A stretch of DNA of 64,000 nucleotides from Shewanella sp. (GTDB lineage Bacteria; Pseudomonadota; Gammaproteobacteria; Enterobacterales; Shewanellaceae), in assembly GCF_013214165.1 (NCBI RefSeq), contig NZ_JABSSM010000021.1:1-64000 (forward strand), given 5' to 3'. The translations under genes were made by a program, and so were the position numbers. The notes below the pieces were generated by a model. It made no database searches. It saw only the letters and a program-made list of their open reading frames with translations, and was not told the DNA's origin. Positions 5,382 to 52,871 of the stretch are shown here, piece after piece. The number at the start of each line of letters is the position of its first letter. Positions within the stretch are counted from its first letter, which is position 1.

Positions 5382-5603
5382 AGGTGACGACTATGGAGAA
5401 GTTAACATTTCTGGAGGCTATACGGACCGAGATCAGGGGGAGATAGGAAATGTCTAATGTATGTCTGGAACATACAAGACCCTGCACGGCACCACGGCAA
5501 GTGATAGATAGCCATGAAGGAGCGACCTCAAACGCACTCCTCAATACCAACTCAGCCAGAAGCTAAACCAGAAAATGTGATCCGCCTTCATTCCAAGTCC
5601 AGC
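5382..5603 (+). repeat. Structured interspersed repeat, copy A (degenerate or partial)
   Basis: The tail half (from 5482) closely matches the tails of copies B, C and D: a CATGAAGGAGCGACCTC block, then CAATACCAACTCAGCCAGAA, then a CCTTCATTCCAAG block. The head half is shortened and only GGAGGCTATACGGACC is recognisable, compared with AGAGGCTATAGGGACC in copy B. The outer stem seen in the other copies cannot be found. Confidence 0.65.
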
Positions 5604-5669: not shown

Positions 5670-6016
5670 GTGTGAACGCGGCTGTGACCTTCGACAGCAG
5701 GGTGAGGTTTCACTGCGTGAAACTATCCGAGCGAGAGATAGGGATAACGAACTGGCTGTTAAACACGGACGTTGTTTGATGTCGCAGAGGCTATAGGGAC
5801 CCTTCCGTCAATTAGAGAGGGTGCCGTGTCACAGAAGTGTTTACATATTAGGGTCGTTCATTCACATCCATGTGAGCACGACATTGGTGCATCCTGCACG
5901 GCACCGCCGCAGGCTATAAATTACAATGAAGGAACGATCTCAAACACACTTCCCAATACCAAATAAGCCAAAAGATAAACCAAAAAATGTAATCTAGCTT
6001 CATTCCAAGGCTAGCC
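5670..6016 (+). repeat. Structured interspersed repeat, copy B (long form)
   Basis: Starts GTGTGAACGCGG. Outer stem P1 pairs CTGTGAC (5682-5688) with GTCACAG (5828-5834). A second stem pairs CGACA (5692-5696) with TGTCG (5780-5784) around an expanded loop that itself contains the hairpin arms GTTTCA and TGAAAC. The block CAGAGGCTATAGGGACC follows, then arms ACCCT and AGGGT, then P1'. The tail from about 5890 matches copies A, C and D. Confidence 0.8.
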
Positions 6017-6025
6017 AAACCGCTG

Positions 6026-6057
6026 GATCCCCGCCCACACGCATTGCGGGAAAGACG
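6026..6057. repeat. Short hairpin repeat, GGATCCC type
   Basis: GGATCC, then stem CCCGC (6030-6034) and GCGGG (6046-6050), then AAAGACGAG. A second copy at 39965-39995 has the same flanks and loop but a different stem, CCGGC with GCCGG. The stem changes keep pairing. Confidence 0.6.
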
Positions 6058-6120
6058 AGTGTTGAATTGCTATCCCATATAGAGGTTCAACAAACAAATA
6101 ACCTGCTTTGATAAATTCAG

Positions 6121-6356
6121 GTGTAGATGCGGCTACGAGCTTCGGTTTCAGGGATGAAATCGCAGAGCGTATAGGGATGACTCTTATAAAATCAAGAGCC
6201 GGCGTCTCGTAGAACCTTCTCAAAGTAAAGAGTGCACATTCGCCCAGGGCAGGCGATAGATAACCATGAAGGAACGACCTTCAAAAAATATCCCAATACC
6301 AACTCAGCCAGAAGCTAAACCACTTAAATGTAATCAAGCTTCATTCGAAGGCTTGC
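6121..6356 (+). repeat. Structured interspersed repeat, copy C
   Basis: Starts GTGTAGATGCGG. Outer stem P1 is CTACGAG (6133-6139) with CTCGTAG (6206-6212). Stem P2 is CGGTTTC (6143-6149), loop AGGGAT, GAAATCG (6156-6162). A third stem pairs ACTCTT with AAGAG around 6178-6198. The tail, with a GAAGG/CCTTC hairpin and a CTTC/GAAG hairpin, ends at the stop codon of yaaA, with which it abuts tail to tail. Confidence 0.8.
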
Positions 6357-31580: not shown

Positions 31581-31634
31581 ATGAAAATATTCAACGATCA
31601 CTTTTTTACTTTCTTTTTTATTCCCCCCACCTAG
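31581..31634 (+). CDS. pheL: pheA leader peptide
   Basis: A 17-residue frame reading MKIFNDHFFTFFFIPPT, with six Phe. It parallels E. coli PheL (seven Phe in 15). The stop at 31632-31634 is directly followed by the antiterminator arm, so stalled or finished translation would switch the downstream terminator as in classical phenylalanine attenuation. Confidence 0.93.
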   Translation: MKIFNDHFFTFFFIPPT

Positions 31635-31700
31635 GGAGGCGGAATTTCGGTGTAAAAACGAAAGTGAAAATTCCAAAGCCTCCCTTAGGGAGGCTTTTTT
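31634..31700 (+). terminator. pheA attenuator with visible antiterminator
   Basis: Terminator: AAAGCCTCCC (31675-31684) and GGGAGGCTTT (31688-31697), then T. Competing arm: GGGAGGC then GGAATTTC (about 31634-31648) can pair with AAATTCC and GCCTCCC (31668-31684), which would block terminator formation. This arrangement is read directly from the sequence. Confidence 0.88.
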
Positions 31701-31736
31701 GTAACCGATTTTTGTCGTAGCGACATTGAGGGCAAC

Positions 31737-51524: not shown

Positions 51525-52138
51525 AATCGGCTCTTCTATACAAGTTGAGATAATAAGATCCCGCCAAGGGAGACAAGTGATGCCAATACGGTAGCGGCGG
51601 TGAAATACTTGAAGGTGTGTTGAATTGTATTAATTTAAAATGATTCAAGCTCACGGTGATAGCCTACGCTCCTTTGTGGATGGCAAGTATGGGGCAGCCT
51701 AAAAAAATAGACAAAGTATGAATATTTTTGCATTGGTTGAACCTGATTCACCCTAAACCTCGGCAACAAATAGACAGTAAAGCACTAACAGAGCACTAAA
51801 AATTGGCTAAAAAAGGACTAGAAAAGAACGGAGATTGTTAATGGCTGAATTTAGAGGGCGAAACATGGTTAAGCATCCCAGAAAATACGCTTGGTCACGA
51901 CAAGTTTAGAGCCAGCATCCAAGCACATTTAACTGTAAGATTTGGCCTCCTAGCCTAAAACATCCAACCAATAGACAATGCGATATTAGGTTGAGCACGG
52001 TAAAACCTGCCGTACCTTGTAGGAGCGACTTTAGCCGCGAAAAACACAACATACACAGGGGCCATCGCTGATTAAATATGCTTCAAAATACGGTTCTAAA
52101 TATCAGTAAGATGTAATCGAAGAAGGAAGATAACTCAG
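51525..52138. other. Gene-free interval upstream of dsdA
   Basis: About 610 bp. It must contain the dsdA promoter. A REP-like palindrome lies at 52018-52043. No gene is supported. Confidence 0.5.
52018..52043. repeat. REP-like palindrome
   Basis: TTGTAGGAGCGACTTTAGCC followed by GCGAAA resembles the TGTAGGAGCGG-N-CCGCGA type REP hairpins associated with RAYT transposases. The core GCG...CGC pairs around CTTTAGC. The RAYT gene at 83-1063 could be its partner. Confidence 0.55.
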
Positions 52139-52336
52139 TGTAGATACGGCTGCGAGCTTCCAAAACAGGGACGTTTTGGCAGAGCCCACATGGAAGTGTT
52201 CACGGCGTCTCGCAGAAGTAGCTGCACATTAAGCGAGCCGCAGGCTATAGGTAAAATGACACTATAACCTTCAACTATCTGTCCAATACCAATGAAGTAA
52301 AAGAGAAAATGCAATCCACCTTCATTCGAAGGTAAC
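52139..52336 (+). repeat. Structured interspersed repeat, copy D1
   Basis: Starts GTGTAGATACGG. Outer stem P1 is CTGCGAG (52150-52156) with CTCGCAG (52209-52215). Stem P2 is CCAAAAC (52160-52166), loop AGGGAC, GTTTTGG (52173-52179). The tail from about 52220 ends in CTTCATTCGAAGG, as in the other copies. Confidence 0.8.
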
Positions 52337-52340
52337 TAAG

Positions 52341-52470
52341 TTTTCGGTGACTCGCAGAACCTTCTCAAAATATAGAGTGCACATCCCCCGCCGGAGGCGA
52401 TAGGTTACAATGAAGGTACGACCTTCAAAATATTACCAAGTACCAACTTAAAGGGATAACCAAGTCTTAT
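52341..52470 (+). repeat. Structured interspersed repeat, copy D2 (head missing)
   Basis: Begins at the P1' side (GTGACTCGCAGAACCTTCTC) and carries the tail with GAAGG-TACGA-CCTTC and TACCAACTT, closest to copy C. Its head is lost. It abuts the stop codon of acpS. Confidence 0.75.
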
Positions 52471-52472
52471 CC

Positions 52473-52871
52473 TTAAGACTCCAGAATTACTGTTGCAGTA
52501 GCGTAGTGCTGCTCATCGGCTATAGATATGTGCCCTCTCACACCACCAAGCAGCGCGAGTCTTTCAGCCGCGCCGCCACTGAAACTCACCAAGGGTGCGC
52601 CATTGGCGTCATTGCTTATCTCGATATGCTGAAACGAGACGCCGCGGCCAATACCAGTGCCTAAGGCTTTGGCGGCAGCTTCTTTGGCGGCGAAACGCTT
52701 CGCCAGATAACGTCCGGGTTTCGATGAAGCGATAAAAATCGCCATCTCCAATTCGGTAAGTACACGCTTGGCTAAACGGCACTGAGCCAGGCCGTCAAGA
52801 TCTCCTGCGGCTGGCACTTTTTGCTCGATACGTTCAATCTCGGCGATATCGGTACCTAGACCAACAATCAT
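52473..52871 (-). CDS. acpS: Holo-[acyl-carrier-protein] synthase
   Basis: A 132-residue 4'-phosphopantetheinyl transferase activating acyl carrier protein. IVGLGTDIAEIERIE at the start and RYLAKRFAAKEAAAKALGTG (about 54-73) hold the magnesium-binding Asp and Glu. Last gene of the rpoE-to-acpS gene run, 92 bp after pdxJ, with a large palindrome in between. Its stop abuts repeat copy D2. Confidence 0.96.
   Translation of the reverse strand: MIVGLGTDIAEIERIEQKVPAAGDLDGLAQCRLAKRVLTELEMAIFIASSKPGRYLAKRFAAKEAAAKALGTGIGRGVSFQHIEISNDANGAPLVSFSGGAAERLALLGGVRGHISIADEQHYATATVILES

Follow-up and report, generated by a model that had tools for sequence, protein, structure and literature searches.

The closest described relatives of the element reported here are the Yersinia repeat YPAL/RU-2 and the Rfam family Ysr224 (RF02770). 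The passages of PMC2229807 devoted to YPAL report target duplications of 3-26 bp, targets that span or adjoin dyad symmetry, and both filled and empty sites; reviews also raise the possibility, in those passages, that YPAL affects the stability of upstream transcripts. An RNAz P of 1.00 is given for YPAL in the relevant part of PMC2267715, and the RU-2/YPAL sequence printed in a section of PMC2759123 has the same P3/P4 core and loops as the element described below. Analysis of a 64,000-nucleotide stretch of a Shewanella sp. contig (NZ_JABSSM010000021.1, positions 1 to 64,000; hereafter the window) revealed three copies of an interspersed element, B, C and D1, for which a first-pass annotation had known no named family. 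YPAL/RU-2 and Ysr224 are such relatives, and comparison of sequence and fold suggests that the element forms a Shewanella branch within a mobile structured repeat that is related to YPAL/RU-2 and far more widespread.

All three window copies are found by model R1 (Table 1), but they are only three of many; a blastn search with copy C hit the genome from which the window comes 66 times. Both stems of the first-pass annotation were located as claimed: the outer stem, here P2, reads CTGTGAC/GTCACAG in copy B, CTACGAG/CTCGTAG in C and CTGCGAG/CTCGCAG in D1, and the inner stem, P3, reads CGACA/TGTCG, CGGTTTC/GAAATCG and CCAAAAC/GTTTTGG, respectively. The P2 pairs stand, but the stem is longer than had been proposed, with P1 (GTGTAGATGC/GTATCTGCAC) lying outside P2 and differing on both sides in copy B (GTGAACGC/GTGTTTAC). 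In copy C, P1 lacks its usual pairing because the 3′ arm has been replaced. The sequence TATAGGGA, previously taken for a junction block, in fact makes up the 5′ arm plus the loop of another hairpin, P4. The 3′ part of copy B carries a repeat of the D1 family at 5893-6015.

Table 1. Features of the element and its neighbours in the window.
Feature	Position	Strand	Details
Older partial copy (3′ part), ahead of B	5492-5597	+	blastn, 81%
Copy B, folded core	5670-5848	+	model R1, 51.8 bits; sequence
Copy B, P1	5670-5679 with 5837-5846		
Copy B, P2	5682-5688 with 5828-5834		
Copy B, P3	5692-5696 with 5780-5784		
Hairpin module in P3 loop of copy B	5700-5779 (ends approximate)	+	
Copy B, 3′ part	5849-6016	+	second inserted module and tail hairpin (about 5990-6016)
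Copy C, folded core	6121-6223	+	model R1, 48.6 bits; P1 3′ arm replaced
Copy C, P2	6133-6139 with 6206-6212		
Copy C, P3	6143-6149 with 6156-6162		
Copy C, 3′ part	6224-6356	+	tail hairpin ends 4 bases from yaaA 3′ end
yaaA	6357-7133	-	convergent to copy C
Copy D1, plain folded core	52138-52229	+	model R1, 106.1 bits; P1-P4 intact
Copy D1, 3′ part with tail hairpin	52230-52336	+	points at 3′ end of acpS-like gene
Further partial copy behind D1	52345-52448	+	blastn, 81%
acpS-like gene	52473-52871	-	convergent to D1

Other copies carry a P3-loop module of the copy B type, which plain copies such as L042:862-953 lack. The hairpin loops of the element contain hairpin modules of several kinds (in the window at 5700-5779 and at about 5850-5910; L011, L014, L019, L035, L041, L042), often directly after the GG of the loop A-N-GGA, and one kind is apparently nested within its own kind in opposite orientation. 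These modules recall the double-hairpin elements of fungal mitochondria. Behind several tails (window 6024-6062, L029, L042) stands a palindrome, GGATTCCCGC...GCGGGAA.GACG, that looks like a CGTC-tagged REP. Elsewhere in the window, positions 31583-31703 match a phenylalanine leader with 81 bits, above the family cut-off.

The repeat is real, and one folded shape is kept while most letters vary. Its core is a 92-nt branched fold, in which P1 (10 pairs), a GG/AA internal loop and P2 (7 pairs) lead to a three-way junction with P3 (2 + 7 pairs) and P4 (3 + 3 pairs). Alignment A1, from which model R1 was built, consists of 34 plain copies (no loop inserts), D1 among them, which were picked by their letters in the P1 arms, in the GG and in the AGAAGT block, and not by P3, P4 or the loops; these are 34 of the 37 distinct plain copies, L033:827, L043:6878 and L067:3178 being omitted as near-duplicates. 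In A1, 97.0% of the pair cells are standard, compared with 24-50% paired when the partner is slid by 1-3 columns, and only 27 of 1087 cells are neither standard nor A-C (6 are A-C). Both sides vary in 20 of the 32 pairs, which none of 500 shuffles reached, and unguided RNAalifold predicted 28 pairs, all within the proposed 32. Alignment A3, comprising 56 model-picked matches from Shewanella and other genera, gave 98.3% paired cells, with 30 of 32 pairs varying on both sides. The A1 shuffles and column slides and the pairing in A3 rule out chance or an alignment artefact. Numerous additional copies, from several genera, thus support the proposal of a selected three-way fold with compensatory change, and neither an absence of covariation in further copies nor stems broken in most of them was found in A1 or A3.

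Two parts of the original description need qualification. Perfect pairing holds for most cells of A1, but some insert-bearing copies have mismatched P3 arms (L047, L051), and "structure conserved, sequence not" is true of the stems but not of the A-N-GGA loops and several junction letters, which are invariant in 34/34 copies. Folded alone, D1 gave -36.0 kcal/mol (z -3.24), compared with -28.4 kcal/mol (z -1.97) for its reverse strand. The fold energy of copy C is no better than that of shuffles (z -0.82; reverse strand -0.80), so that its case rests on comparison. Covariation could in principle be mimicked without selection if template switching or gene conversion brought the two arms of a palindrome into agreement while recombination shuffled a few stem types, and a few P3 stem types do recur per genome, with some copies mixing the arms of different types (L047, L051). 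We reject this as the whole story and regard it as very improbable, since stems vary while loops and junction letters are invariant, the fold is kept in other families with unrelated stems, and arm correction predicts no wobble strand bias.

Such a bias is seen in A1, with 72 G-T and 6 A-C cells in 13 and 6 pair columns, respectively, which favours the strand read by the first-pass annotation as the folded strand. Most of the G-T cells (62/72) fall in P1, whose letters entered copy selection, and the polarity outside P1 is weak (10 G-T versus 5 A-C). In A3, G-T and A-C cells amount to 85 and 4, with 14 and 1 in the 23 rows that we sorted as non-Shewanella. On the same strand, both hairpin loops contain GGA, in 34/34 copies each for P3 and P4 in A1 and in 56/56 and 55/56 in A3; the A, G, G and A of each A1 loop are invariant, and variation is confined to the intervening and following loop letters. 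CsrA/RsmA sites follow the pattern C-A-N-GGA-N-G on stems of variable sequence. The Rfam 12.0 account of the Csr motif describes a short GGA hairpin that usually occurs in twos (PMC4383904, in part). csrA is present in 58/63 genomes with the element and 254/306 without it (p 0.084), and a genome that is 98% complete and has 9 element matches gave no csrA match; csrA co-occurrence, considered as proof of CsrA binding, does not discriminate. An Rfam search of the window copies gave no match to CsrB or another known Csr RNA family. Elsewhere in the window's own genome, L077 (G000:C45:4942-5278) resembles a CsrB-like RNA (RF00018), at 51.5 bits against a family cut-off of 71.

Among Rfam families, only Ysr224 falls on the element consistently, SNORD53 and others being weak single matches. 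RF02770 hits the element's reverse strand below cut-off in L133, L135 and L207 (best E 0.0004 to 0.009), with weak matches in L042 and L067. It exceeds its cut-off in 3/295 genomes of the order, two genomes of one genus having at least 12 matches each, and at 1e-6 no Shewanella genome is among the matches listed. Conversely, R1 matches 10/10 loci found with RF02770, and the printed RU-2 sequence aligns to 8/10 of these loci (77-97% over 30-120 bases). R1 itself matches 124/129 Shewanella genomes and 85/394 genomes of the order at 1e-4, and 63/369 genomes of the class, spanning 56 of 272 sampled genera, at 1e-6. The best 33, 10 and 11 matches per genome were scored in these three sets and the best 150 in single-genome scans, counts equal to those figures being at least that number. 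The single-genome scans gave 60 matches in G059, 69 in G119, 36 in G103, 26 in G035, 148 in G740, 38 in G439, 37 in G581, 16 in G854 and 8 in G158. In G740, 16 of the 20 copies examined (L205-L224) are near-identical 161-167-bp units with terminal inverted repeats of the TATACC...GGTATA type, as expected of a MITE, which indicates that a MITE-like unit can also carry this core. An exact pattern taken from copy C turned up in 34 stretches on named contigs, of which 33 belong to Shewanella and one to Enterovibrio. A truncated copy on an Enterovibrio contig (L064:5287-5340) has a P3 identical to a Shewanella nanhaiensis type, which suggests inter-family transfer. A 251-base query gave no match in plasmid and phage collections, and one exact pattern gave none in viral contigs.

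Copies prefer gene 3′ ends, with the tail toward the convergent gene. For placement, cassette and yaaA counts, genes were called as longest ORFs using our own scripts. The fetched loci contain 81 clusters; a downstream gene was called for 66 of these, convergent in 51 cases and co-directional in 15, and upstream genes show no bias (24 and 28 in the two directions). The tail motif ends within 15 bases of the gene 3′ end in about 16 of the 51 convergent cases. The 20 copies of G740 occur in any orientation relative to genes. At L133:970-1846, six copies spaced by about 150 bases lie on alternating strands, and those on one strand are near-identical to each other.

Facing copies also bracket accessory genes in Shewanella. 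G059 is a complete chromosome for which 54 of the 60 matches are listed; among these, neighbours on opposite strands separated by 0.6-12 kb run minus-then-plus in 14/14 cases, those more than 12 kb apart run plus-then-minus in 15 cases and minus-then-plus in one, and 17 neighbours less than 600 bp apart are same-strand tandems. At 0.6-6 kb, minus-then-plus and plus-then-minus pairs number 4 and 0 in G103, 1 and 0 in G035, and 1 and 1 in G119, among the matches listed. The frequency of facing pairs is taken from these four genomes, as other loci were mostly picked for facing pairs. This strand order defines a unit of element(-), cargo and element(+), with the 5′ ends inward. The arrangement, at gene 3′ ends and tail-outward around accessory genes, looks new; in the open literature, from which subscription journals are largely missing, we recognised no paper on such an arrangement in Shewanella.

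Thirty cassettes from 12 genomes, mostly chosen as facing pairs, contain 83 ORFs of at least 70 residues. In an all-against-all comparison of these ORFs, L136 and L137 shared one identical pair and L143 and L145 two near-identical pairs; L138 held a pair at 97% that also matched L145 in part (65%), the two KAP proteins matched at 27% and an L147/L151 pair at 31%; a transposase common to the cargoes was not borne out. Scans of 63 cargo proteins with Pfam, PADLOC and NCBIfam (plus smaller sets) gave, among the matches listed, KAP NTPase (two, also QatA-like), AAA_13, FRG, Abi_alpha, deaminase and carbonic anhydrase, as well as a group II intron reverse transcriptase, a tyrosine recombinase and several transposases. 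A HEPN family match fell below its cut-off, some PADLOC reverse-transcriptase hits may derive from the group II protein, and many cargo proteins match no family. Judging by these family matches, some of the cargo resembles anti-phage defence genes. The G+C content of the cargo is below that of the flanks in 14/14 G059 cassettes (mean 39.5% versus 45.6%). The gene to the left of G059 cassette L147 has elements beside it, in the expected orientation, in 4/21 other loci; this site supports placement only, because the right-hand gene lies outside the fetched stretch.

Facing pairs that enclose unlike cargo without a shared transposase could reflect a fold that acts as single-stranded DNA, the two copies being transposon-like ends whose hairpins and A-N-GGA loops are read by a nuclease or recombinase in trans that moves the cassettes. 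The resemblance of the loops to insertion points of further hairpin modules would also agree with this. We nevertheless consider it unlikely: neither an enzyme nor an excised form was observed, tandem and single copies are common (in G059, the 17 tandem neighbours among the matches listed), and the wobble polarity suits RNA at least equally.

The yaaA site of copy C was compared across relatives. yaaA was found in 60/60 genomes, and the best 30 loci were examined, 29 of them besides the window's own. A convergent gene, X, adjoins yaaA without an element in 21 of the 29, often with a bidirectional terminator between the two genes (for example L162 and L163); five loci carry elements and three are arranged otherwise. 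In four of the five occupied loci (G073, G074, G125 and G041), the order is X, element(-), cargo, element(+), yaaA, and the longest ORFs of the inserts, of 184, 166, 83 and 271 residues, respectively, represent unlike cargo. One site holds different cargoes between facing copies, and blastn joins the four inserts mainly via the element and X's own 3′ flank. No X was seen within the stretch at the fifth occupied locus (G014) or in the window. In these five element-bearing loci yaaA is closer to that of the window than in any other (82-95% identity), which is most simply read as a single early occupation, after which the cargo changed while the copies stayed in place.

Placement at gene 3′ ends (51/66) and, at the yaaA site, an insert next to the terminator of X itself would fit an mRNA-end element only, as proposed for YPAL; a stable 3′ hairpin would then shield or end transcripts, and the cargo would be ordinary horizontally acquired DNA between convergent genes. 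The YPAL passages of PMC2229807, in which an effect on upstream transcript stability is considered, point the same way. This is improbable in our judgement, since the convergent neighbour's mRNA corresponds to the reverse strand, in which the P1 wobbles become A-C and the D1 fold is weaker, and since an end element alone does not explain the 14/14 facing pairs of G059.

We lean, with modest confidence, towards a mobile YPAL-related repeat whose facing copies are flanks for cargo exchange and whose folded strand is perhaps bound by CsrA/RsmA. Copies would spread by inserting at or near terminators just beyond stop codons, and two facing copies would then provide common flanks between which cargo could be gained, lost or exchanged, either by homologous recombination of the copies or by an enzyme in trans. 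A transcript leaving the cassette in either direction would terminate in the folded strand, and CsrA/RsmA may bind the two GGA hairpins of that strand. Against this proposal, the loops on the reverse strand are not GGA, the preferred placement puts the reverse strand in the convergent neighbour's mRNA, and Ysr224 was modelled on the reverse strand. Facing pairs are also not universal (one of each kind in G119), G740 copies take any orientation to genes, 15/66 clusters have a co-directional downstream gene, and no mobilising enzyme was found. A more far-reaching scheme, possible but rather doubtful, is an integron-unlike cassette system with YPAL-type inverted ends that docks at gene 3′ ends and captures and exchanges short accessory and anti-phage genes, the folded strand being read by an enzyme encoded elsewhere.

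The repeat described from Yersinia proves to be a single branch of a class-wide, structured family that covaries strongly. With two GGA hairpins in each copy and tens of copies in a genome, the element, if transcribed, would be abundant enough to influence CsrA titration. The Shewanella element marks the borders of exchangeable cargo and can therefore serve as a marker in searches for new accessory and defence genes; it is perhaps a new gene-capture route.

Several known systems share individual features with the element. CsrA decoys of the CsrB/RsmY/RsmZ type likewise have paired hairpins with a GGA loop, whereas the element is an interspersed repeat with two GGA hairpins on a long stem. In integron attC sites, the fold is conserved more than the letters, and integron cassettes are alike in having small unlike cargo genes beside such sites. 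An attC origin was rejected: attC is a direct repeat, whereas the element ends are inverted, one on each side (14/14 in G059). An integron integrase was not found as a common cargo partner, with one tyrosine recombinase among the 63 cargo proteins. REP elements of the GTAG and CGTC families are also multi-copy palindromes that often form inverted pairs, but REPs, in the portion of PMC3733652 that treats them, are single hairpins of 20-40 bp and not a 92-nt branched core. Ysr224 spans the same core as the Shewanella element and differs in being modelled on the reverse strand with other pairing. YPAL measures 167-168 bp compared with about 250-300 bp for the Shewanella units (about 280-290 bp for the tandem L067), which have another tail and 5′ part and form tandem units and facing pairs around cargo, neither of which is mentioned in the YPAL passages cited above. 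In those same passages, YPAL/RU-2 is a multi-copy, intergenic and palindromic repeat like the Shewanella element, copies of which also lie beside gene ends (51/66 clusters) and have filled and empty sites (yaaA).
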